This document shows, piece after piece, positions 226 to 44,587 of a stretch of 64,000 nucleotides of DNA (positions are counted from its first letter, which is position 1; each line of letters begins with the position of its first letter). The DNA comes from Bacteroidales bacterium (GTDB lineage Bacteria > Bacteroidota > Bacteroidia > Bacteroidales > UBA932). The notes under the pieces were generated by a model that saw only the letters and a program-made list of their open reading frames with translations, did not search any database and was not told the origin of the DNA. The DNA is taken from assembly GCA_017447265.1 (NCBI GenBank), contig JAFSOA010000009.1:1-64000 (forward strand), written 5' to 3'. Made by a program: the position numbers and the translations under genes.

Positions 226-3200
226 TTATTTCAACCAGCTTTCCAGCACCTTCGCTTCTTCGCTTCGGCCGAAGTTGTTGTAGGTGCGGATGAGATAGTA
301 GAACATGGTGGCCGCATCGTCGGCGAGCTTCTTGTCGAGGATGTCGTCCTCGCCGGAGCCGACGGGCGTGGAGTAGAAGAACAGCGACTGGACGGTCTCC
401 TTGCCGAGCTGGTTGCCGACCGCTAGGGCTTTTTCAGGCCGGCCGAGGCGGAAGTATGCCTCCACGATACTCAGCAGTGACCACTCGTTGAGGCTGCGGA
501 GCATCGACACGTTGTAAGGGAAGTTCCGGGCGGGCATGCACTCGATGCACTTGTCGAGCACCTGCTCCGCCTTGGCCAGTTCGCCCTTTTCGATCAGGGC
601 CGAGGCCGTGGTGGAGAACATGTCGCGCAGCGGCACGACGGCCGAGAAAGTGTAGACGTTCTGGTAGTCCCAGTGGACGGTCGTGTCGGCCAGCGACGCG
701 AAGCGGTAGGTGTTCATGATGCGGTCGTAGAGCGCGTCGGCGTCCATCGTGGCTTCCCGGTCGGTATAGTCGTTGAGGAAAGGCACGAGCTTGTAGACGA
801 TGCCGTCGTACTGCAGCCAGGGATCCAGGCCGAGCTTGGTCTCGTTGCGCGAGACGAAGTAGATGGGCCGCGACCAGTCGTAGTTGGCCAGGATATCGAG
901 GATGATGAGGTCGAACTTCGTGAGGTTGTTGCCGCTGATGCTCAGGATGATCTGGTCGACGACCCTGTCGCGCAGGTTTTCCGGGACAAGGCCGCAGCGG
1001 ATGGCGTTCTCCTTGTTGACGGGCACGACCAGCTGGTGGCCCGGGATGAAATCGTCGCCGTTGCGCTTGAAGCGCTCGTCCTTGAAGACATTGATGGCTT
1101 CGGAGGCCAGGATGGCGTGGTCCACCACGTCGACCACCGGCGTATAGTCATTGGTACCGTAGAGGTACTGGATGCGCGGGATGCTGATGTTGATCGGGTC
1201 GGACTCGTAGAAGCGGTGCTTCATCTGGTCGATGTACCAGTCGGTGCCCAGCAGCGAGGAGTTGACGATGCGCACGTCGGTGCGGATGCCTTCCACTTCC
1301 TGGGCATACCAGAGCGGGAAGGTGTCGTTGTCGCCGTGGGTGACCAGCAGGGCCTGCGGGGCGAGGCCGGAAAGGTGGTTCCAGGCCAGGTCGCGGGCGG
1401 AGTAACGGCCGCTGCGGTCATGGTCGTCCCAGTTCTGGCAGCCCATGAGCACGGGCACCACGAGGCCCAGGGCCACGGCCAGGGCGGCGGCGGGCATGCC
1501 GCCTTCTTTTTTGGTGAGGCGCTCGAACCAGCTCTGCAGGGCCATCACGCCCAGTCCGATCCAGAGCGCAAAGACATAGAAGGAACCCGCGTACGCGTAG
1601 TCACGCTCGCGTACCTGGAAAGGCGGCTGGTTGAGGTAGACCACGATGGCCAGGCCGGTCAGCAGGAAGAGCAGGCCGGTGACCCAGCTGTTGCGTCCGT
1701 CGTGGCGCAGCTGGAAGAAGAAGCCGATGAGGCCCAGCAGGAGCGGGAGGAAGAAGTAGTGGTTCTTGCTGCGGTTATGGGCCAGGTAGTCGGGGGCGAG
1801 GCTCTGGTCGCCCAGGCGTGCGTTGTCGATGAATTTGATGCCGCTCTCCCAGTTGCCCCGGATCAGGTCGCCCGGCGTGTCGCCGTGCAGGTCGTTCTGC
1901 CGGCCCACGAAATTCCACATGAAGTAGCGGACATACATATAGTTCACCTGATAGTCGAAGAAGAAGCGCAGGTTGTCCTTCATGGTCGGCATCTGGAAGT
2001 TGTAGGGCTTGCCGTAGAGCGTTGCGCGGCGGGTGACCGTCTTGGTGGTGTATCCCTTGTAGAACTCCTTGTAGCGCTCGTCGAAGCCGTTCCACATGCG
2101 CGGGAAGAGCATCTTCGTGGAGGAAGGATAGGAGGCGTCGATGTTGAGGGCGTGGTAGTATTTGCCGTCGAGCGGGGTCCAGTAGGGCTTTTCATCCACC
2201 TCATAGGGCGAGGTGTACATCTGTCCGTAGAGGATGGGGTTGGAGCCGTACTGCTCGCGGCCCAGGTAGCGGATCAGCGTGTAGGGGTTGTCAGGCTGGT
2301 ATTCGTTCATCGGGGTGCCGGTGCTCGAACGGATGACCGTGACGGTGAAGAGCGAGTAGCCGAGCACGATGGCGGTGACCATCAGCGTGGCGGTGTGGGC
2401 CAGGCCGCGGTCCTTCTTGCGGAAGAGCCACATCAAGAAGAAGCAGGCGGCGAAGAAGAGGACCATGAAGACCGTGGCACCCACGTTGAACGGGGCGCCG
2501 AAGCTGTTGACGAAGAGGCGGTCGACACCGGCGGCCAGGCGCGGCAGATAGGGGATGATGCCGAACAGGATGACGGCCAGGACAACGCCCGAGACGGCCA
2601 GCACGCCCACGGTGCGCAGGAAGGTGACGGGTTTCTTGTGCTTCTTGTAGTAGATCAGGTAGACGATGGCCGGGATGGTCAGCAGGTTGAGCAAGTGCAC
2701 GCCGATGGACAGGCCCATCAGGAAGCAGATGAGCACCAGCCAGCGGTTGGCATACGGCTGGTCGGCCTGCTCTTCCCATTTGAGGGCTGCCCAGAAAACA
2801 ATGGCGGTGAAGAGCGACGACATGGCATAGACTTCACCCTCTACGGCCGAGAACCAGAAGGTGTCGGAGAAGCAGTAGGCGAAGGCGCCCACCAGGCCGG
2901 CCCCGAAGAGGCCTACGGCCCCGGCGGTCGACAGGGTCTTGCCGCGTTTCTCGTTGAGCCGGCGTCCGAAGTGGACGATGGTCAGGTAGAGGAAGAAGAT
3001 GGTGAACCCGGAGCAGAGGGCGCTCATGGCATTGACGGCCACGGCCGCGTGCTCGGCGTCGGTGAAGAGCGTGAAGATGCGGGCGAACAGGTTGAAGACC
3101 ATGTTTCCGGGCGCGTGGCCGACTTCGAGTTTGTAGGACGAGGCGATGAACTCGCCGCAATCCCAGAAGCTGGTGGTGGGTTCAATGGTTGCAAGATAAA

Positions 3201-3270
3201 CCAGCGATGCGAGGACGGCGACACACGCCGCGAGGATGCGATTGATCTTGTTGAACTGTTTGGTATCCAT
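226..3270 (-). CDS. DUF2723 family polytopic membrane protein (GT117/TMEM260-like)
   Basis: This 1014-residue protein starts with a membrane segment followed by the family signature around residues 32-56, including FWDCGEF and GHAPG. About a dozen hydrophobic segments follow up to roughly residue 600. The soluble remainder ends in a helical, TPR-like stretch (about 880-1014). DUF2723 proteins are membrane glycosyltransferase-like enzymes of the GT-C class, related to TMEM260, and are near-universal in Bacteroidota. A role in O-mannosylation or envelope glycosylation is family inference. The ATG at 3270 follows a TATCTTTG promoter element on the minus strand. It is transcribed divergently from the SUI1-like gene. 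Confidence 0.88.
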   Translation of the reverse strand: MDTKQFNKINRILAACVAVLASLVYLATIEPTTSFWDCGEFIASSYKLEVGHAPGNMVFNLFARIFTLFTDAEHAAVAVNAMSALCSGFTIFFLYLTIVHFGRRLNEKRGKTLSTAGAVGLFGAGLVGAFAYCFSDTFWFSAVEGEVYAMSSLFTAIVFWAALKWEEQADQPYANRWLVLICFLMGLSIGVHLLNLLTIPAIVYLIYYKKHKKPVTFLRTVGVLAVSGVVLAVILFGIIPYLPRLAAGVDRLFVNSFGAPFNVGATVFMVLFFAACFFLMWLFRKKDRGLAHTATLMVTAIVLGYSLFTVTVIRSSTGTPMNEYQPDNPYTLIRYLGREQYGSNPILYGQMYTSPYEVDEKPYWTPLDGKYYHALNIDASYPSSTKMLFPRMWNGFDERYKEFYKGYTTKTVTRRATLYGKPYNFQMPTMKDNLRFFFDYQVNYMYVRYFMWNFVGRQNDLHGDTPGDLIRGNWESGIKFIDNARLGDQSLAPDYLAHNRSKNHYFFLPLLLGLIGFFFQLRHDGRNSWVTGLLFLLTGLAIVVYLNQPPFQVRERDYAYAGSFYVFALWIGLGVMALQSWFERLTKKEGGMPAAALAVALGLVVPVLMGCQNWDDHDRSGRYSARDLAWNHLSGLAPQALLVTHGDNDTFPLWYAQEVEGIRTDVRIVNSSLLGTDWYIDQMKHRFYESDPINISIPRIQYLYGTNDYTPVVDVVDHAILASEAINVFKDERFKRNGDDFIPGHQLVVPVNKENAIRCGLVPENLRDRVVDQIILSISGNNLTKFDLIILDILANYDWSRPIYFVSRNETKLGLDPWLQYDGIVYKLVPFLNDYTDREATMDADALYDRIMNTYRFASLADTTVHWDYQNVYTFSAVVPLRDMFSTTASALIEKGELAKAEQVLDKCIECMPARNFPYNVSMLRSLNEWSLLSIVEAYFRLGRPEKALAVGNQLGKETVQSLFFYSTPVGSGEDDILDKKLADDAATMFYYLIRTYNNFGRSEEAKVLESWLK

Positions 3271-24577: not shown

Positions 24578-24600
24578 TTGGAAAAGGCGATTTCGTGAAT

Positions 24601-24608
24601 TATATTTG
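24601..24608 (+). promoter_or_regulatory. -7 promoter element for the transposase
   Basis: TATATTTG lies 22 nt before the ATG at 24631. Because it overlaps the only upstream in-frame start (GTG at 24595), it argues for the downstream ATG. Confidence 0.5.
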
Positions 24609-24630
24609 TACACAATTAAAATGGGGCGAC

Positions 24631-25542
24631 ATGCGGGGAAGAATATCTTTTACGAGAGGTGCTGTTCAGCACGTCTATCAAAAAACCAACAAAGGATTTT
24701 TGATTTTCTATTCCGGACGGGATTGTCTGGTGTTTTTCACGATTTTCTGCATGGCCGCCCGGAAATGCGGCGTCAGGGTTCTTGGTCTGTGCCTGATGGT
24801 CGACCATATCCATGTTTTAGTGGAGGCTAATTCGAAGGAACAGCTTAGTCGCTTCGTCCATATGTATACAAGATCCTTCAGCAGGATGTATAACCAAGCG
24901 TATCCGCAGGCCAATCTCTCTTTTCATAGCCCTTTCGGAAAGGCGTCTAAGGTGGGAGAGAAAAAGATCAAGTCGGCCATCGCTTATCTGTACAACAACC
25001 CGGTGGAGAAACAACTATGCAACAAAGTTGAGCAATCCAGATGGAACTTTCTGGCTTATGCGCAGAACAAACATCCCTTCTCGGATCCTTTCGTCGAAAA
25101 CCGATCCAGGGGATATTTACGGAAGGCCCTGCATGAAGTCAGGGAAGAATTTGCACAGGGTCGGCCGCTCAACTACGCCCAACTGGCTCGAATGACAAAG
25201 AATCTCAACCGACAGGAGTTGGCCCAATTGAGCGATTTTATCATAAGGACCTACAATTGCATCGATTATGCGGCGCTTCAAAGTCATTACAACAGTTTTG
25301 ATGACATGGTCATGGCCATCAATAGCAATACAGGTTCTGAATATGATCTGAAAGAAGATTTCACGGCGGGTTCCGATGGGATCTATACGACGATGACCGG
25401 ATTCCTGTTGCAGACAAAGGAATTGTCCTGTATCGGCGACCTGCTAAAACGGCCTGAAGAGGAGCGCCGCCGTCTCTGGGAGCCTCTTGCCATACGAACG
25501 GGTGCTAGTGCCCGCCATCTCACCAAATATCTCCATCTATGA
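24631..25542 (+). CDS. REP-associated tyrosine transposase (Y1/HUH, IS200-like)
   Basis: A 303-residue protein. The N-terminal ~150 residues form a Y1_Tnp domain with the HUH motif HIH at 59-61 (LMVDHIHVLVE) and a later AIAYLYNNPVEK segment holding the probable nucleophilic tyrosine. The C-terminal ~140 residues end in RTGASARHLTKYL, like a helix-turn-helix. These proteins nick and join single-stranded DNA at hairpins, and many are domesticated to spread REP sequences. Hairpins flank the gene on both sides, and its GC content is lower than its neighbours. It appears intact. Confidence 0.88.
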   Translation: MRGRISFTRGAVQHVYQKTNKGFLIFYSGRDCLVFFTIFCMAARKCGVRVLGLCLMVDHIHVLVEANSKEQLSRFVHMYTRSFSRMYNQAYPQANLSFHSPFGKASKVGEKKIKSAIAYLYNNPVEKQLCNKVEQSRWNFLAYAQNKHPFSDPFVENRSRGYLRKALHEVREEFAQGRPLNYAQLARMTKNLNRQELAQLSDFIIRTYNCIDYAALQSHYNSFDDMVMAINSNTGSEYDLKEDFTAGSDGIYTTMTGFLLQTKELSCIGDLLKRPEEERRRLWEPLAIRTGASARHLTKYLHL

Positions 25543-35334: not shown

Positions 35335-38300
35335 CTAGAGATGAACCTCCTTCACCGCATGGTGACGGAGGTTTTTCTTTTCCAGGAAACTGTAGAGCTC
35401 GTAGCCGGGAGCGACGTTGTACTTTTTGGAGATGAGACTCAGGCGGTCGTCGATGTCGTCGTGGCGGAAAAGGACGTCGATGAAGAAGCGGGCCTTGCCT
35501 TTGTGGTGCTTGATCTCCTTGAGCAGGGCGCTGCGAAGTTCCGGCGTGGAGGCTTCCAGCGGTATCTCGACGTGCAGTTCCCTGAAGAATTCATCCTTGG
35601 TGTTGGAGAGCAACATCATGTTCTGGATGCGGAGCTCGTAGCTGTCCTCGGACGCATTGTCGTCTTTCTTGCGGAAGCGCTGCCGCGTGGCGCACTTGAC
35701 CAGCAGGGCGGTGTGGACCTGCATGTATTTCATGAAGGTCTCGTAGTCTTTGCTGAAGAGGGAGAAGGTGTGGCTGCCGGAGAAGTCTTCGAGCGTGAAG
35801 CGGCACCAGGGCTTGTTGCCGCTCTTGGTGTAACGCACGTCACACTCCGACACCAGCCCGGCCACGTAGTATTCCTTGTTCTGCACGGACTTGTCGGTCT
35901 GCAGCGTCCGGTCGATCTCGTCGATCCGGGCGATGTCGGCCGTGGCGAACTGCTCGATCTCGAAGCGGAAGCGGTCGAGTGGATGGGCCGACAGATACAT
36001 GCCCACGCACTCCTTCTCCTTCTTGAGCAGTTCCATCTCGTTGGCCTCGACCTTGGGCGGTATGTTGGGCCGTACGGGCTTGAGTTCGGCCATGTCGCCG
36101 AAGAGGCCGCCCGAAGACATCGAGTCGTTGTGGAACTTGGCGGCGTAACCCAGCAGCACGTCCAGGTAGGTTTCGTCTTTCCCCGTCTCGAAGAAATACT
36201 GCGACCGGCTCATATCGGGGAAGCTGTCGAAGGCACCGGCGTAGACCAGGCATTCGACAACCTTCCGGTTGATGACGCCCAGCGGCATACGTTCCACGAA
36301 ATCGAAGATGTCGGTGAAGGGACCGCCTTTCCGCCGCTCGGCGATCACGGCGTCGATGACATTGGCGCCCACGCCCTTGATGCCGCCCATGCCGAAGCGG
36401 ATCTGTCCTTTCTTGTTGACGGTGAACTCCGTGGCGCTCTCGTTGATATCGGGGCCCAGGACCGGGATCTGCCAGTGGCGGCAGTCGTCCATGATCTTGG
36501 TGATCTCCTCCATGTTGTTGAGATTGCAGCTCATGTTGGCGGCGAAGAACTCAGCCGGATAATGGGCTTTCAGCCAGGCGGTCTGGTAGCTCACCCAGGC
36601 ATAACAGGTGGCGTGCGACTTGTTGAACGCGTATTCCGCAAAGGCGCGCCAGTCCTGCCAGATCTTGTTGAGCAGCGTTTCGGAGTGTCCGTGCGCCTGC
36701 CCGCCTTCCATGAACATGACATAGAGTTCCTCCATGTCCTTGATCTTCTTCTTGCCCATGGCCTTGCGGAGCTTGTCGGCCTGGCCCTTGGTGAAGCCGG
36801 CCAGCCTCTGCGACAGCAGCATCACCTGCTCCTGGTAGACCGTGATGCCATAGGTGTCTTTCAGGAACTCTTCCATCTCCGGCGTGTCGTAGGCGATGGG
36901 CTTGATACCCTGCTTGCGGTCGACGAAGTCGGGGATGTAGTCCATCGGACCCGGCCGGTAGAGCGCGTTCATGGCGATCAGGTCTTCAAAGCGCTCCGGC
37001 TGCAGCTTCTGCAGCCATTCCTTCATGCCGGGCGACTCGAACTGGAAGATCGAGGTGGTATCGCCGCGTCCGTAGAGTTCGTAGGTGGCCTTGTCGTCGA
37101 TGGGGATGGCTTCGATGTCGATGTCCAGGCCGTAGCCCTCCTTGATCAGGTCGAGGGTCTTGTGGATGATCGACAGGGTGTTGAGGCCCAGGAAGTCCAT
37201 CTTCAGCAGGCCGCATTCTTCGATATAGTGGCCGTCGTACTGCGAGGTCCAGACCTCTTCGCCCGTATCTTTGTCTTTCGACAGGCAGATGGGGATATAG
37301 TCGCTCAGGTTGCCCGGTCCGATGATGGTGGCGCAGGCATGCATGCCGACCTGCCGGATGCTGCCTTCCAGTTGTTCGGCGTACTCCAGCACTTCCTTGT
37401 TGAGAGCGTTGTCCTCCCTGGCGAGCTCGTCCCTGAATTCAGGCACCAGGCGGAAGCAGTTGGCCAGCGTGATCTTGACGCTCTTCTCTTCCATCTCGCC
37501 CTTCTCGTTTTTCTTGCGTTCGAAGAGGCGGGCCGGCACCATTTTCGAGAGACGGTTGCTCTCGTCGATGGTCACGTGGCTGATGCGCGCCACGTCCTTG
37601 ATGGCACCCTTGGCGAGCATGGTGCCGAAGGTGATGACGCGGGACACGTGGTCTGCGCCGTAGGTTTCCTCGACATAGCGGTGCGCGGCTTCCAGGTTCT
37701 CGAAGTCCACGTCGATATCGGGCATGGAGATACGCTCCGGGTTGAGGAAGCGCTCGAACAGAAGCTGGTATTTGATCGGGTCGAGGTTGGTGATCCACAG
37801 GCAGTAGGCCACCACGCTGCCGGCGGCCGAGCCGCGGCCCGGACCTACGAGCCAGCCCTCCTTGCGCATGGCCCGGATATAATCCTGGACGATCAGGAAG
37901 TAGTCGGGGAAGCCCATCGAGGCGATGGTCTTCAGCTCGAAGTCGATGCGTTCCTCCTGCTCGGGCGTGAGGGTCTCGCCGTAGCGGATGTGTGCTCCCT
38001 GGTAGGTGAGGTGGCAGAGGAAAGCCACCGACTTGCAGAAGTCGTCGCCCCGATAATGGCCTTTCGGGTCGTTTTTACCGGCGTCGATATAGGGTTTGTA
38101 TTGTTCCAGATACCGGTCGATGTCGCGGAGGAAGTCCTCGTCGATCCTGAACTTGGGCAGGATGTAGTCGTGGTCGATCTTGTAGGCCTCCACCTTGCCG
38201 GCCACTTCCAGCGTGTTGCTGATGACTTCGGGATGCTCCGGGAAAAGCGCCGCCATTTCTTCCTCGCTCTTGAGGAATTCCTGCTGGGTGTAGCGCAGGC

Positions 38301-39054
38301 GCTTCGGGTCGTCGATGTCGGAGTTGGTGGTCAGGCAGATGAGGCGGTCATGCGCCGGCCCGTCTTCCCGGCGGATGAAATGGACGTCGTTGGTCGCCAC
38401 CACTTTCACCCCCAGTTCTTCGGCCAGCGAGAAAATCACGGGATTGACCTCCATCTGGGCCCGGTACACGTCATCGTCGAGATCCGGCACTTCGGTCTTG
38501 TGCTTCATCACCTCCAGGTAGTAGTCCTCGCCGAAGACCCGCTGGTGCCAGCGGATGGTCTCGCGGGCAGCTTCGATGTTTCCGTCCAGGATGTTGCGGG
38601 GGAGCTCGCCGGCCAGGCAGGCGGAGCAGCAGATCAGGTTGTCATGGTACTGCTCGATGATCTCGTGCGACACGCGCGGCTTGTAATACATTCCGTGAAT
38701 ATGTCCCTCCGTGCAGATTTTCATCAGGTTCTGATAACCTGCGTAGTTCTTGGCCAGCAGGGTCAGGTGGTAGTATTTGCGGTGGTCGTTGTCCTTGAGG
38801 CGGTGGTCGTAGTGCCGTGTCACATACACCTCGCAGCCGATGATGGGCTTGACGACGGGCTGCTTGTTCTCGTCCAGGTTGCTCTTGTCGTAGGCGAACT
38901 TGAAGAACTCCTTCACGCCGTACATGTTGCCGTGGTCGGTAATGGCCAGGGCCGGCATGTTGAGCTCGCGGGCGCGTGCGAACAGTTTCTCGATGTCGGA
39001 AAATCCGTCGAGAATCGAGTATTGCGTGTGGACGTGCAGGTGTACGAAGGACAT
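35335..39054 (-). CDS. dnaE: DNA polymerase III alpha subunit
   Basis: The 1239-residue replicative polymerase has an N-terminal PHP domain ([13 protein letters not shown] with metal-binding histidines; ITDHGNMYG), palm motifs [10 protein letters not shown] and PDIDVDFE (catalytic aspartates, about residues 440-447), the [24 protein letters not shown] segment, and an OB fold near 1000-1090. This is the DnaE1 type. The final codons coincide with the groEL terminator on the opposite strand. Only 2 nt separate its ATG from the upstream methyltransferase stop, and no clear promoter of its own is visible. Confidence 0.97.
   Translation of the reverse strand: [1239 protein letters not shown]
35344..35380 (+). 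terminator. groEL intrinsic terminator inside the dnaE 3' end
   Basis: AACCTCCTTCACC (35344-35356) pairs with GGTGACGGAGGTT (35361-35373), 12 of 13 positions, with a GCAT loop and a T-rich tail. On the minus strand the same bases encode the last residues of DnaE. Confidence 0.85.
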
Positions 39055-39056
39055 AG

Positions 39057-39938
39057 TTATTTTAAAATAATATCTTTTCGAAAAGAAATAATATTTTGAT
39101 GATGATGATTGATCTTATAAGCGTATGGATATCCAAATGGATAGAGAGGTTTGACTGTTTGTAGCAACACAGTTGTCCCAACATATTGGAAACCAATATC
39201 TTGCATCATTTTTACAATATCTGCTTGCACACAAATTTCTTTTTTCTCTACAGTAAAATCACTGATAATAATTGATGCATATTTTTTATCTCGCAAACAA
39301 TCGTATCCTTTTTTCATGATTGCTTTCAGTGCTGAAAGAAAATCTTCATAGTTTTCAAAGTTGCCTAAATCATTATTATTATCGCTATAATATATTATTC
39401 CATCACGAGCGGACATGCGAAAATTTTTACCATTGTTGTTTCTCGTCCCTTTTGATTTATTACGAAGAATATTATGATATGGAGGAGAAGTTACAATATA
39501 ATCAACAAATCCGACATTATCTAAAAGAGCAAGACTATCTCCAACATAATAGACACAGTCGGGAATGCTCTTTCTATTAGCAATACGTTCTAAATATAAT
39601 TGATGATACTCTTCACTCAAATCAATGCCAACACCCTTTCGTTTAAGATTATCTGCGGCAATCAGAGTAGTTCCACTTCCAGCAAAGGGATCTAGAACAA
39701 TCATACCCTGCTTGGTAAATAAGCTGATAAGTTTTTCTATATCTTTAATTAAAAAAGGAGCTGGGTGTTTGTATGCGGCTTTGTCCTCAGGGCATGATTC
39801 CGAAATCCAAAAGCTTTTTGTTAACAATAACCAAGAACGCCCGTCCAAATCATTTAAAACATTTCTTTCATCGTATTTACCTGGCTGATTCTCAAGAGAC
39901 TTAGGTTTTCTTGGCCTTTTCTGTTTGTTTTCTTTCAT
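39057..39938 (-). CDS. DNA methyltransferase (SPPY type, N4-cytosine or N6-adenine)
   Basis: A 293-residue AdoMet-dependent DNA methyltransferase. In order it has motif X-like HPAPF (58-62), motif I DPFAGSGTT (83-91), motif II GIDLSEEY (104-111) and motif IV TSPPY (150-154). This gives the X-I-IV order with no large insert between I and IV. SPPY favours N4-cytosine but does not prove it. The Lys/Arg-rich N-terminus and NDLDGRSWLLLTKSFW segment recur in methylases of restriction systems. The gene is AT-rich compared with both flanks. Its ATG overlaps the stop of the upstream methyltransferase-nuclease gene (ATGA), so the two form an operon. Confidence 0.85.
   Translation of the reverse strand: MKENKQKRPRKPKSLENQPGKYDERNVLNDLDGRSWLLLTKSFWISESCPEDKAAYKHPAPFLIKDIEKLISLFTKQGMIVLDPFAGSGTTLIAADNLKRKGVGIDLSEEYHQLYLERIANRKSIPDCVYYVGDSLALLDNVGFVDYIVTSPPYHNILRNKSKGTRNNNGKNFRMSARDGIIYYSDNNNDLGNFENYEDFLSALKAIMKKGYDCLRDKKYASIIISDFTVEKKEICVQADIVKMMQDIGFQYVGTTVLLQTVKPLYPFGYPYAYKINHHHQNIISFRKDIILK
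39064..39097. repeat. Long AT-rich near-palindrome at the methyltransferase/dnaE junction
   Basis: The 34 nt form a near-perfect inverted repeat centred on TTCGAA, within the last codons of the methyltransferase gene. A separate perfect palindrome TTATTTTAAAATAA (39057-39070) covers its stop codon. They may mark an integration junction, attenuate read-through into dnaE, or serve as a terminator. Confidence 0.55.
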
Positions 39939-42355
39939 AGCTTTTTTGATAAGGCTTTGATATCGTCAATACTAATTTTTTGGGAAGTCTTTAGTTTTCT
40001 AATATCCTCATAGGTAAGATATCTCCAAGAACTACTCCTAAAAGATTCAAGAAACATAGGATCTTGATATTGTTGAAGTTCTTGAACTCGTCTATCTGGG
40101 ATAATCATGAACTTCGGAAGACTACCTTCTAAATTTGACGAACGGCTTATTGCTTCAATGAATCCTGTTGAATTCTCCACTTCAAACACCGCAGAAATTT
40201 TATTTCCAGATAACCAAACATTGTCTATCATCTCGATACGCGATAACGTGTAGTTGTCATATCCAGTCAATACAGTATCTAAATCCGCGTAAGAAGAAAG
40301 ATCAATTAGTTTTGTTTGTCCATCAACAAATTCACTTTGTTCTCGTCTTCCTACGAAAGGCTCAAAATGAGCTTTTCGCGCTAAATAACACAACTCTTCA
40401 ATTATATGCGTGTGCGTAGTACATTCTGTTTCTACGTCATCTTTTAATTTCCATTTTCCTTGGGATTTTTGGGCATATTTACTCAGGACTTTACTAATTC
40501 CCTGCATATCTGGTGTCTGCCCATTCGGAAACTGTTTGAATATTTCAGCAACAACATCGTCATAACGGACAGAAACATTCCGTCGTAGGAAAGACCTTAT
40601 TGTAAGATCAACCCTTTCGGAAAGAGGAAAAGATAAATGACTAATGTAAGAAGAAGGATTATTAAACCAATAGTAATCTCCAGACTGGTCTCGTTGATTT
40701 TTCTCGACACAGAAAATCCTATCTTTTCCTACGTCTGTACTTAGTATTTTTTGAATCTCTTCAGCTGGTTCGTCAGGTTGAAGATAACCAGCCTGAAGCA
40801 TCTCGGGAAGTAATCCGTTCAAAATAAACGTGAAAGGTGTTTTTTCTGCTCGCTCAACGAGAATATCTATGGTCTTCTGACGAACAAAATGATACAACTC
40901 AACATCTCCTTTTAAATTCATACTATCCGTTGCTTTTTTACAACGAATGTAGAAATCCGAACTTGTTGTCCCATATGGATTAGCGACATTTGATTCACCC
41001 GAACGTCTATTATACTGATGAGTCACCTTTTCGAACACAAACCCGGCCTTTCTGATTGCGCTAACAAAATCATTCCATTCTTTAATATCTTGATTGTGAA
41101 AAGTAACAACCATATAATGATTGGGTTTCAGCACATTATAGAGATTTTTGAAGGCCCTATCTAGTTTCAGAGTATATGAGTTTCGAGAAGTGATACCCTT
41201 TTTATAAGTTATCTCTCCTGAAGAATCGGGAGTATATCGTTTATTGAAATGCTGCAACCAAACAAGCCAAACAAGGCTTAAATCCATATACTGAACTAAA
41301 CCGCCATAGGGCGGATCAGTTATGATGAAATCGATACTATCCGCAGCAATGTAATCACATATATCAGCAATGTCTAACACACCATAATTAACATCTGCTT
41401 TTAAATCCGGCCAGCGAGGGGAATTTTTAATCTTGAATTTTTTGTTCGCAGGGATAGATTGCTCAACGTCAATCATAGCGTTGACGACGCCCTGTTTGTC
41501 AAAACATGAACGAAGAAAAACAATCAAAGGGTTTTGTTCCATGGAACGATTTCGAATCATATAATCGGCCCTACCCCAACTCCCGGAAAAGTCCCTATTT
41601 CCAGCCTCTCCTCTAGGAACGACCATCTTGGATACCAAATGAAGAGTATGAACAAACGCATACATCAACGGTAAGCGAACTGATTTTTCAGAATGCTGTA
41701 TTAAATCAAAGATCTTGGCTAAAATATATAAGTTTCTTCTCGTCCATAAACAATCGAAAGAGTTTCCTCCGATTTTCTTTATAAAAGTATTGTTAATTGA
41801 AGGATTTCTAGGGAAAGGATCCTGAGGATACCAATAGGAAATATCAAGGTCCTTCATAGAAATGGCTTTTTGTAGATCGATATTATCAGCTTGGGTAGAG
41901 ACTCCCTGTCCCTTATCATCCTTCATACGGACATGTGTTAAGGAGCCCTTAATCCAAATATAATTGTAAATGGTCATTTCCTGACCACTTGACGTAGTTT
42001 TTAAATAATGATCTCTATAGATGGTGTCTAATTCAATGGTTTTCTTTATGCCATCAACAGCTTTAGTAAAAGCGGTCTTGTCAAAAGGACTCGTAAGGAC
42101 ATCAATAACGAACGCTGATAAGGGGTTCAAATCTGTTGAAATAACTTTGCGCCCGTTTTTTAAACACTCAAAAGTAGAAATACCACTCCCCATAAAAGGG
42201 TCTAAAACAACGCCATTTTCAGGGCAATAGTGTTTAATATAATCACTCCAAATATTATGAGGTTTTCTCCCCCAATACTTCATCGCTTTATACATAGGAG
42301 GGCGAGTCGCCTCAACTAAAGCGTAATTAATGTGATCCGGGTTATATTCTTCCAT
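39935..42355 (-). CDS. DNA methyltransferase fused to a C-terminal nuclease-like domain
   Basis: An 806-residue protein (ATG at 42355; an in-frame TTG at 42379 is less likely). Motif I DPFMGSGISTFE lies at about 52-63, preceded by KYWGRKPHNIW, and motif IV is ITDPPYGG at about 345-352, an adenine-type DPPY. The ~280 residues between I and IV may be the target-recognition region. Residues about 580-650 look like a winged helix. The C-terminal ~110 residues contain IDNVWLSGNKISAVFEVEN and KFMIIPD, resembling PD-(D/E)XK-type nuclease segments in which Asp711 and Glu725/Glu727 are candidate ligands. A single-chain restriction-modification role is inference. Confidence 0.8.
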   Translation of the reverse strand: MEEYNPDHINYALVEATRPPMYKAMKYWGRKPHNIWSDYIKHYCPENGVVLDPFMGSGISTFECLKNGRKVISTDLNPLSAFVIDVLTSPFDKTAFTKAVDGIKKTIELDTIYRDHYLKTTSSGQEMTIYNYIWIKGSLTHVRMKDDKGQGVSTQADNIDLQKAISMKDLDISYWYPQDPFPRNPSINNTFIKKIGGNSFDCLWTRRNLYILAKIFDLIQHSEKSVRLPLMYAFVHTLHLVSKMVVPRGEAGNRDFSGSWGRADYMIRNRSMEQNPLIVFLRSCFDKQGVVNAMIDVEQSIPANKKFKIKNSPRWPDLKADVNYGVLDIADICDYIAADSIDFIITDPPYGGLVQYMDLSLVWLVWLQHFNKRYTPDSSGEITYKKGITSRNSYTLKLDRAFKNLYNVLKPNHYMVVTFHNQDIKEWNDFVSAIRKAGFVFEKVTHQYNRRSGESNVANPYGTTSSDFYIRCKKATDSMNLKGDVELYHFVRQKTIDILVERAEKTPFTFILNGLLPEMLQAGYLQPDEPAEEIQKILSTDVGKDRIFCVEKNQRDQSGDYYWFNNPSSYISHLSFPLSERVDLTIRSFLRRNVSVRYDDVVAEIFKQFPNGQTPDMQGISKVLSKYAQKSQGKWKLKDDVETECTTHTHIIEELCYLARKAHFEPFVGRREQSEFVDGQTKLIDLSSYADLDTVLTGYDNYTLSRIEMIDNVWLSGNKISAVFEVENSTGFIEAISRSSNLEGSLPKFMIIPDRRVQELQQYQDPMFLESFRSSSWRYLTYEDIRKLKTSQKISIDDIKALSKKL

Positions 42356-42636
42356 AGCAGGAGTAATTGTGTTACACAAAAAAACATAGCAATTTAAAGT
42401 TTTTTATTGATATCCACAAGAGGCTTCATCTCATTTTTATGTCACGCTTGTTCTTCTTAATGTCTAGAGATTCGAAGGATAGAGATAATCGTCGATTTTG
42501 TAGTTGTTAAGTATCTTAATGTTAATGACAAATACGAATCACTAGTATAGTGCAAACAAGATTCAATACCATTATCTATAGCAATGAAAAAAGAATCAGC
42601 GCAATCAAAAAGACCTAACCTTATCAATCAAAGAAT

Positions 42637-42665
42637 AAAAAACTCCGTCACCTTTCGATGACGGA
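42637..42665 (-). terminator. Intrinsic terminator of the gpmI operon
   Basis: On the minus strand TCCGTCA/TGACGGA (42644-42650 and 42659-42665) form a 7-bp stem with an 8-nt loop, followed by a T6 run (A6 at 42637-42642 on the plus strand). It would stop transcription from gpmI and the EF-hand gene. Confidence 0.8.
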
Positions 42666-42729
42666 AGACATACTGTGTTCTAGCCAAGATTAACGGCTTT
42701 CTGAATGGATGGAAACTGTTTGAAACAAA

Positions 42730-42764
42730 GTCTGGCCATAAAAAGACTCGATTAATGGCCAGAC
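42730..42764. repeat. Perfect 10-bp inverted repeat
   Basis: GTCTGGCCAT (42730-42739) and ATGGCCAGAC (42755-42764) form a perfect stem with a 15-nt loop, just downstream of the EF-hand gene stop. There is no T-run. It could be a processing or stability hairpin, or lie at the island edge. Confidence 0.6.
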
Positions 42765-42774
42765 GCAACAAACA

Positions 42775-43050
42775 TTATTTCTTCAGGCTGTCGATCTTGT
42801 CTTTGGCCTTGTCCATCAGTCCGGCGGCGTCGTCCATCAGCTTGCCGGTGTTTTCTTTGACTTCGCCGATGATTTCCTTGGCTTTCGGAGAGGCCTTGTC
42901 GTAGAGGTCTTTGGCGTTGTCGACCATTTCGTCGGCCACTTCATTGAATTTCTTGCTGGCCTTGGCGGCGGCGCATTTGAGTTTCTCGTCCAGGGACACT
43001 TTGCCGTCGGAATTCAGGTCGCGGGGATCTTTCAGGGTTTCTTCGCTCAT
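42775..43050 (-). CDS. Small EF-hand-loop protein with amphipathic helices
   Basis: A 91-residue acidic/lysine-rich protein without signal peptide. Residues 11-22 (DLNSDGKVSLDE) match the canonical 12-residue EF-hand loop, with ligands at positions 1, 3, 5 and 12 and Gly at 6. The rest (about 25-91) is a repetitive amphipathic helix rich in Ala, Lys and Asp, recalling YtxH/CsbD-like stress proteins. I do not recognise a named family. It lies 19 nt after gpmI, is probably co-transcribed with it, and is followed by a strong terminator. Calcium binding is inference. Confidence 0.7.
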   Translation of the reverse strand: MSEETLKDPRDLNSDGKVSLDEKLKCAAAKASKKFNEVADEMVDNAKDLYDKASPKAKEIIGEVKENTGKLMDDAAGLMDKAKDKIDSLKK

Positions 43051-43069
43051 GATTGTATGTATTTCAGGA

Positions 43070-44587
43070 TTAAATCAGGGATTTTCCGGTCATGGCGGCG
43101 GGCTGCGGGATGCCCATCAGCTTGAGGATGGTGGGGGCGATGTCGGCCAGGCGGCCGTCGCGCACCTCCTTCACGTCGTCGTCCACGACGATGAACTGGA
43201 CCTGGTTGAGCGAATGCTGGGTGTTTTCAGTAAAGTCGTCGTTCACGGCGTGGTCGGCGTTGCCATGGTCGGCCGTGATGAGCACGGTGTAGCCGTTTTC
43301 GCGGGCGGTGCGGACCACGCGGCCGACGGCGCTGTCGATGTAGCGCACGGCGTCGCAGATCGGGCAGTATTTGCCGGTGTGTCCCACCATGTCGCCGTTG
43401 GCGTAGTTGAGGATGATCATGTCGTGTTTGCGCGTCTCGATGTCGGCGGTCAGGGCCTTGGTCACTTCTGGTGCGCTCATCTCGGGTTGAAGGTCGTAGG
43501 TAGCTACCTTCGGCGAGTTGATGAGGATGCGGTCTTCGTTTTCATACGGGGCTTCGCGGCCGCCGTTGAAGAAGAAGGTGACGTGGGCGTATTTCTCGGT
43601 CTCAGCGATGCGGAGCTGCTTCTTGCCGGCCTTGGATACGACTTCGCCGAGGGTTTCCTGCACGTTTTCCTTGTCGAAGAGGATGTGCAGGCCGGTGAAC
43701 TTGTCGTCGTACGGGGTCAGGCAGCAATAATAGAGCGGGATGGTGTGCATGCCCTGCTCCGGCATGTCAGTCTGGGTAAGGGCCGCGGTGATCTCGCGGG
43801 CGCGGTCGTTGCGGAAGTTGAAGAAGATCACGGCGTCGCCTTCCTCGATGGTGCCGACGGGTTTGCCGTCTTCGCCCACGATGCAGACCGGCTTGATGAA
43901 TTCATCGGTGACGCCGGCGTCGTAAGAGGCCTGGATGGCGTCGGTCGCCGACGTGGCGGGCGTGCCGACCCCGTTGACGATCAGGTCGTAGCCTTCTTTC
44001 ACGCGCTCCCAGCGCTTGTCGCGGTCCATGGTGTAGAAACGGCCGCAGATGGAAGCGACCTTGCCCGTTGTCTCGGCCATGACATGCTCGAGTTCGGCGA
44101 CAAAGCCCTTGCCGCTGTGCGGGTCTGTGTCGCGACCGTCCATGAGGCAGTGCACGAAGACCTGCGAGAGGTTCATCTTGGCGGCTTCCGCCAGGAATTC
44201 GTAGAGGTGGTTGAGGGAACTGTGCACACCGCCGTGCGAGCAGAGGCCCATGAAGTGCAGCTTCTTGCCGGAGTCGGCCACGTAGGTGTAGGCGCGGCGG
44301 ATCTCCTCGTTCTGCAGGAGGCTGTGGCTGCGGCAGGCGCGGTTGATTTTCACCAGGTCCTGGTAGACGATGCGGCCACCGCCGATGTTGAGGTGTCCCA
44401 CTTCAGAATTGCCCATCTGCCCCTCGGGTAGTCCCACATCTTCGCCGCAGGCGTTCAGGTGCGAGAAAGGATATTTTTCGCGGAGGGCGTCGATTTCCGG
44501 CGTTCCGGCCGTGTAAATCGCGTTGGAATGGTCATGGCGACCTTCGCCCCATCCGTCCAGTATCATCAATAATACTTTCTTCTGCAT
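43070..44587 (-). CDS. gpmI: 2,3-bisphosphoglycerate-independent phosphoglycerate mutase
   Basis: A 505-residue alkaline-phosphatase-superfamily enzyme that interconverts 3- and 2-phosphoglycerate in glycolysis using Mn. It has [11 protein letters not shown] at the start, the phosphoserine motif [17 protein letters not shown] (Ser near 63), and late metal-binding [11 protein letters not shown] and ITADHGNAD segments. The ATG at 44587 begins LDGWG in the standard place. It is divergent from rnr, with a TACTTTTG element upstream. Confidence 0.96.

Follow-up and report, generated by a model that had tools for sequence, protein, structure and literature searches.

The question raised by this locus is whether two overlapping methyltransferase genes can make up a complete restriction system. 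The locus lies in a stretch of 64,000 nucleotides (nt) from a Bacteroidales bacterium (GenBank assembly GCA_017447265.1, contig JAFSOA010000009.1, positions 1 to 64,000; hereafter, the window), where an AT-rich island holds the genes M1 and M2 between GC-rich neighbors. The first-pass annotation, made from the letters alone, had proposed that the pair could form a self-contained module of restriction and modification, possibly directed at an asymmetric site, and the comparisons described below favor this proposal. We consider the island, with a probability of about 0.72, to be a restriction-modification system of Type IIC whose site is probably asymmetric; in it, M1 would both modify and cut DNA and M2 would protect the other strand. 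For what is most likely a Type IIC system, its most interesting feature is the shared descent of M1 with the methyltransferase of BREX (bacteriophage exclusion) type 3.

Both genes are intact open reading frames (ORFs) that overlap by ATGA (39935-39938), and both products match the Pfam family N6_N4_Mtase, M1 carrying a DPPY motif and M2 an SPPY motif at residues 151-154 (Table 1). The initial description of an 806-residue DPPY protein and a separate SPPY methyltransferase is thus borne out. M1 has 806 amino acids (aa) when read from its ATG; with the in-frame TTG at 42379 as the start, it would have 814. In M1, the S-adenosylmethionine (AdoMet) motif DPFMGSG is followed by a long insert, the DPPY motif, a linker and the C-terminal nuclease-like domain; because the first three come in this order, which by convention is named alpha class, we assign M1 to the alpha class or an alpha-like class. 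The best PADLOC match of M1 was PglXI (9.9e-38), and MTase_II PDLC03367 matched at 2.9e-34. When M1 was compared part by part with its relatives at the loci L003 and L083, the identities were 75 and 60% for the AdoMet half, 57 and 35% for the insert, 76 and 56% for the DPPY half, 62 and 43% for the linker, and 50 and 43% for the C-terminal domain, so that conservation is lowest in the insert and in the C-terminal domain. The linker is common to all relatives with a C-terminal nuclease-like domain, and its last part also to relatives with an N-terminal one.

The assignment to Type IIC depends on the nature of the C-terminal domain, which, as judged from sequence, is homologous to free-standing type II restriction enzymes. 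A profile search of this region, recommended in the first-pass annotation, gave a match of the window's domain alone to the PADLOC model REase_II PDLC03534 (8.2e-4), and the standalone relative at L050 matched the same model at 5.2e-134; the L003 domain alone gave no match to it in that search. Alignment of seven fused domains with seven standalone proteins by hhalign resulted in a probability of 98.8 (E = 7.5e-17), and when 834 ORFs and as many shuffled ORFs were searched with a hidden Markov model (HMM) of the fused domain, 10 standalone proteins were matched (1.1e-13 to 1.9e-9) and nothing among the shuffled set. For five of the ten, the ORF immediately preceding them can be read as a DNA methyltransferase (L047, L050, L136, L137 and L138; those adjoining L050 and L136-L138 were identified by reading their sequence, without a family search). 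As for the other five, L049 stands alone, L063 is truncated by the end of its record, and L052, L061 and L062 have no adjoining methyltransferase in the region shown. NCBIfam and Pfam gave no named family for the C-terminal domain or its standalone relatives.

The candidate active site is conserved in this family as well. The pattern D-x-hydrophobic-W ... E-V/I-E-x-S/T-T was present in all 17 inspected sequences, fused and standalone. Relative to the PD-(D/E)XK pattern, the D and the first E are invariant and the K is replaced by E in 17 of 17, which indicates that the absence of the lysine is a trait of the family and not decay. Among restriction enzymes, BamHI has E-x-E. The first-pass annotation had described the E-x-E without the usual lysine correctly and had left the nuclease call uncertain for this reason; the homology to REase_II and the family-wide occurrence of E-x-E strengthen the call, and we regard the domain as a candidate nuclease. 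At L047, a second ORF of 247 aa (2483-3226), unrelated-looking and with a nuclease-like E-A-K stretch, lies 3′ of the standalone relative.

M2 has counterparts directly after M1 in L003 (72% identity) and L083 (61%), and the M1-M2 linkage is thus found in three distant genomes. M1 and M2 thus do co-occur in other genomes, as the first-pass annotation required of its reading, though the two adjoin in only three of the seven complete M1 relatives, which belong to one clade. In the other four (L036, L037, L081 and L082), the gene directly upstream of M1 encodes a helix-hairpin-helix protein of 95-98 aa that resembles the N-terminal part of UPF0758/RadC (1.5e-16 for L081, with which the other three align). 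The L083 operon is tightly packed in the order XRE, M1, M2, HNH, the upstream XRE-type gene matching HTH_3 at 3.6e-10; an upstream regulator of this type is typical of many type II systems. At L003, the pair is flanked directly by a tatD-like gene and tyrS, with no HNH gene beside it. M2-type proteins were matched at 1e-25 in 9 of the 393 genomes of the order. Five places from the eight genomes other than our own were viewed, and in all five a second methyltransferase lay beside, or was fused to, the M2-type protein, a pattern suggestive of one methyltransferase for each strand of an asymmetric site. A 615-aa ORF at L156 (4063-5910) consists of a D12-class adenine methyltransferase fused to an M2-type methyltransferase (Pfam 7.3e-46 and 1.3e-28).

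By convention, DPPY is associated with adenine and SPPY with cytosine. M1 would recognize its site through the internal insert and, because of its DPPY motif, would probably methylate N6 of adenine on one strand. M2, perhaps a cytosine-N4 methyltransferase, would mark the other strand, and host sites would stay protected, also after replication. DNA without these marks would be cut by the PD-(D/E)XK-type C-terminal domain, probably once two M1 molecules meet, and we infer that phages would be restricted in this way. Combined enzymes may methylate as monomers and cut only when assembled, according to PMC12707154. Such a scheme would give a new host time to become protected and would fit a two-gene island without a regulator of its own.

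The internal insert, which had been placed at residues 60-340 and singled out for profile searches, is by sequence comparison homologous to that of BREX type 3 methyltransferases. The alignment of a profile of the seven M1 proteins with the PglXI-type protein encoded at L064 ran through the insert (E = 3.6e-65, in a search of one sequence), and an HMM of the insert only (residues 100-322, without the catalytic motifs) matched this protein at 1.6e-20 and none of 834 shuffled ORFs. In L064 the protein is encoded beside an annotated BrxA and a BrxC-like protein (3.1e-21), and the assignment of this locus to type 3 rests on the PglXI match. A four-cysteine motif occurs in the insert of four M1 relatives and is absent from that of the window. 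According to PMC12839542, this insert is the hallmark of BREX type 3 methyltransferases, and searches with it were reported to find no homologs outside BREX; contrary to that report, the present comparison gives one, the M1 insert, which is new. The insert is probably the target-recognition domain. We think it rather probable that BREX and type II restriction draw on one mobile chassis, the methyltransferase core of BREX type 3 together with its insert, which has been coupled in evolution to several effectors, and that BREX type 3 is thereby tied by descent to ordinary restriction-modification.

Several observations weigh against the Type IIC reading. The methyltransferase halves are better conserved (75-76 and 56-60%) than the C-terminal domain (50 and 43%), and sequence searches of the PDB with the domain profile and two relatives returned no restriction enzyme and nothing credible. 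M2 is not beside M1 in four of the seven complete relatives (L036, L037, L081 and L082), and no close M2 was found elsewhere in these four genomes, the best matches being none (G192), 6.7e-43 (G047), 1.2e-13 (G552) and 6.6e-16 (G657), compared with 4.5e-169 for the true M2 of G590. The PDB match of M2 to a cytosine-N4 methyltransferase spans only residues 50-124. In addition, L083 has a separate HNH gene after M2 (PF01844, 7.2e-8), whose product may act there alongside the fused domain or be the main nuclease; possibly, L083 has two nucleases in one system. One alternative is that M1 and M2 supply modification only, the actual nuclease being encoded by a third gene (in L083, for example, the HNH gene), that the C-terminal domain only binds DNA or a partner, and that the window holds an orphan pair. 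The close packing of the L083 operon, the missing lysine and the lower conservation of the domain are in line with it, and no homolog of the L083 HNH gene was found in the window's own assembly, although this search had no control and its empty result shows little. Nevertheless, neither the L003 pair nor that of the window has an adjoining HNH-type gene, the C-terminal domain of L083 itself retains D..ExE, and the same E-x-E pattern is found in standalone proteins occupying the position of a restriction gene, and we consider an orphan pair unlikely.

It might also be supposed that the methyltransferase M1 has strayed from BREX type 3 and that the island is a non-cleaving, BREX-like or epigenetic module which serves defense or regulation without cutting, since M1 has PglXI as its best PADLOC match and shares a homologous insert with a BREX-linked protein. 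We rejected the island as a BREX locus because it consists of two genes between housekeeping genes, without the BREX partners PglZ, BrxC and BrxHII helicase. In the assembly, which is 79% complete, the search for PglZ gave one partial match, on another contig; BrxC and BrxHII were not searched in the genome. This match is just above the cut-off (G000 contig 4, 74940-75116, L157) and lies in a 736-aa frame. The BREX type 3 methyltransferase, as described in PMC12839542, ends in three helical helix-turn-helix (HTH) domains and not in a restriction-enzyme-like one, and a stray BREX enzyme thus seems very unlikely to us. Finally, the C-terminal domain could depend on modification and cut foreign modified DNA in the manner of type IV enzymes, the methyltransferases serving some other purpose, given that methyltransferases of the same core adjoin McrBC-like genes at two loci. 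Its standalone relatives, however, adjoin ordinary methyltransferases and match a type II model, and nothing ties the domain to modified bases; we give this explanation hardly any weight. The Type IIC reading remains the preferred one.

Relatives of M1 are rare and variously partnered. Full-length matches were found in 3 of 393 genomes of the order (own, G192 and G047), in 4 of 395 genomes of the phylum (own, G552, G657 and G590), and only in the own genome among 299 of the family. The scan of genome contigs gave two loci from Bacteroides metagenome-assembled genomes, L003, which is complete, and L002, which ends inside M1 at the contig end. The M1 core with a C-terminal nuclease-like domain was found in seven complete proteins, including that of the window. 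In other relatives, the core is preceded at the N terminus by a fused nuclease-like segment with PDY-x(n)-DAK; this was so in all 14 places inspected, a count of places picked for inspection that excludes partial relatives (including L042, split in two ORFs, L006, L045, L054 and L055). On this segment, Pfam HSDR_N matched at only 0.0076 in L039, the one tested with a match. Elsewhere, the core is accompanied by a separate downstream gene of 363-367 aa (L038, L084 and L085; no Pfam family for that of L038), by McrBC-like genes (L004 and L005) or by a helicase (L117), or lies in a locus resembling BREX (L064). A tree was built from 27 cores, excluding the same partial relatives and L004, whose frame is broken up. 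It separated the C-terminal-nuclease group (98/97) from the N-terminal group (100/100), each a single clade, whereas the order of the deeper branches was weak. Within the C-terminal-nuclease clade, the window, L003 and L083 made up one subclade (100/100), and L036, L037, L081 and L082 the other (100/99).

The island is a horizontal gain, inserted between a ytxH-like gene (42775-43050) and dnaE (35335-39054). The GC content of 39057-42665 is 0.357, that is, 36% in a window of 60%; 266 overlapping stretches of this length from the rest of the window had a mean of 0.599 (sd 0.019) and a lowest value of 0.529, consistent with the AT-richness pointed out at first sight. In the congener G1014, gpmI, the ytxH-like gene and dnaE are consecutive and lack the island, with approximately 126 bp between the last two; the N-terminal segment of dnaE is 91% identical to that of the window. 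In the BLAST alignment with this empty site, the pairing reaches position 42755 on the ytxH side and begins at the start codon of dnaE on the other, and inspection of the printed sequences by eye extends the likeness on the ytxH side to about 42,670. The island, originally delimited as 39057 to 42774, is thus real and slightly shorter, because the part from about 42,670 to 42,774 pairs with the empty site and is native flank. No direct repeats bracketing the island stood out in the repeat list, Rfam gave no matches in 38000-44000, and no exact match to the Bacteroides-type promoter TAnnTTTG was found upstream of M1 (42340-42800, minus strand). M1 is a single copy in the 2.13-Mb assembly, and all four N6_N4_Mtase matches of the assembly fall within the island.

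Other origins of the pair were considered and rejected. The genes are not chance ORFs, since they are intact, overlapping and conserved in distant genomes. A phage gene pair was rejected because phage records gave one partial match and viral contigs no relatives with the window protein; when searched with an alignment, the viral contigs gave one M1 relative, which lacks the C-terminal domain. A plasmid-borne relative was rejected because M1 matches in 19 plasmid records included none covering more than 80% of M1.

Only 2 nt separate the end of M2 from the dnaE start codon (39054-39059), and little of the native upstream stretch was left by the insertion; for this reason, dnaE may now share transcription with the restriction-modification operon. 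In another congener, a different ORF of 230 aa and 35% GC (L121, 1994-2686) is located in the same dnaE flank, so that this flank may repeatedly take up foreign DNA. The otherwise GC-rich window also contains an ORF of 47% GC for an IS200-like transposase (24595-25542; Y1_Tnp, 7.9e-11).

Table 1. Coordinates of the island's features, and of genes adjoining M1 or M2 at related loci
Feature	Position	Strand	Basis
M1, 806-aa fused methyltransferase with DPPY and C-terminal nuclease-like domain	39935..42355	minus	ORF; PF01555, 2.6e-16
M1 residues 1-104, AdoMet-binding half (DPFMGSG)	42044..42355	minus	PF01555 match at residues 27-77
M1 residues 105-325, internal insert, probable target-recognition domain of the BREX type 3 (BrxXI/PglXI) kind	41381..42043	minus	HMM
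M1 residues 326-480, catalytic half, DPPY at 347-350	40916..41380	minus	alignment A2
M1 residues 481-639, linker region including winged-helix-like part	40439..40915	minus	sequence shared with relatives
M1 residues 640-806, restriction-enzyme-like domain, candidate PD-(D/E)XK with E-x-E	39938..40438	minus	PADLOC, hhalign
Candidate active site D711 ... E725-V-E727	40175..40225	minus	invariant in alignment A1 (8 sequences)
M2, 293-aa SPPY methyltransferase, ATGA overlap with M1	39057..39938	minus	ORF; PF01555, 8.4e-27
AT-rich leader of the island, upstream boundary near 42,670	42380..42670	no strand	without counterpart in the G1014 empty site (L131)
Terminator-like hairpin at the upstream island edge	42643..42666	minus	1 found versus 0.9 expected in shuffles; weak alone
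Helix-hairpin-helix genes before M1	L036 11116-11403; L037 3476-3772; L081 5833-6120; L082 9497-9784
HNH gene after M2 and XRE-type regulator before M1, L083	4805-6298 and 9598-9921

We finally compared the island with known systems. M1 has nuclease and methyltransferase domains, assigned by homology, on a single polypeptide, as in Type IIC. According to PMC4081073, this type comprises combined enzymes, mostly with an N-terminal nuclease and a gamma-class methyltransferase, some of which are accompanied by one or two extra methyltransferases. Among them, Eco57I and BpuSI resemble the island in that a combined R and M protein is joined by a separate methyltransferase, as M1 is by M2; enzymes of this type differ in being mostly N-terminal nucleases with a gamma-class methyltransferase, whereas M1 reverses this order and contains an internal insert. 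Accordingly, the usual Type IIG order, an N-terminal PD-D/EXK domain and then a gamma-class methyltransferase, is not that of M1; a further trait of Type IIG in the usual sense is that AdoMet stimulates cleavage. BtgZI, which the same text sets apart, has an N-terminal alpha-class methyltransferase and a C-terminal PD-D/EXK variant, and M1, compared by description, matches this layout; in the BtgZI active site Q replaces E, whereas M1 has E725-V-E727 without the lysine. The first impression that the pair belongs to no named defense system is thus amended, because the kind, Type IIC, is already known from that source and the layout has a precedent there.

The BREX type 3 methyltransferase BrxXI (PglXI) shares with M1 the core and the large homologous insert; the differences are the nuclease-like C terminus of M1, as against the three HTH domains reported for BREX type 3, and the lack of BREX partners in the island. 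The PADLOC family REase_II PDLC03534 shares the C-terminal domain and D..ExE, free-standing there and fused in M1. The N-terminal-nuclease fusions (approximately 750 aa, e.g. L039 and L086) have the same core and a similar stretch near the linker end, and differ in the N-terminal PDY..DAK segment, the lack of a C-terminal domain and their separate clade. A full-text literature search, with most subscription journals outside its coverage, found no other paper on the M1-M2 pair, and to our knowledge BtgZI is the single printed precedent for the M1 layout. If the Type IIC reading is correct, the island would be a second lineage with the rare BtgZI layout, methyltransferase first and cutter last, accompanied by a methyltransferase for the second strand. 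It would also link BREX type 3, a system whose workings are poorly understood, concretely to plain restriction enzymes, so that the recognition insert could be studied in a two-gene instead of a many-gene system, and the standalone and fused versions of one E-x-E nuclease family would allow a direct test of cutting without the usual lysine.

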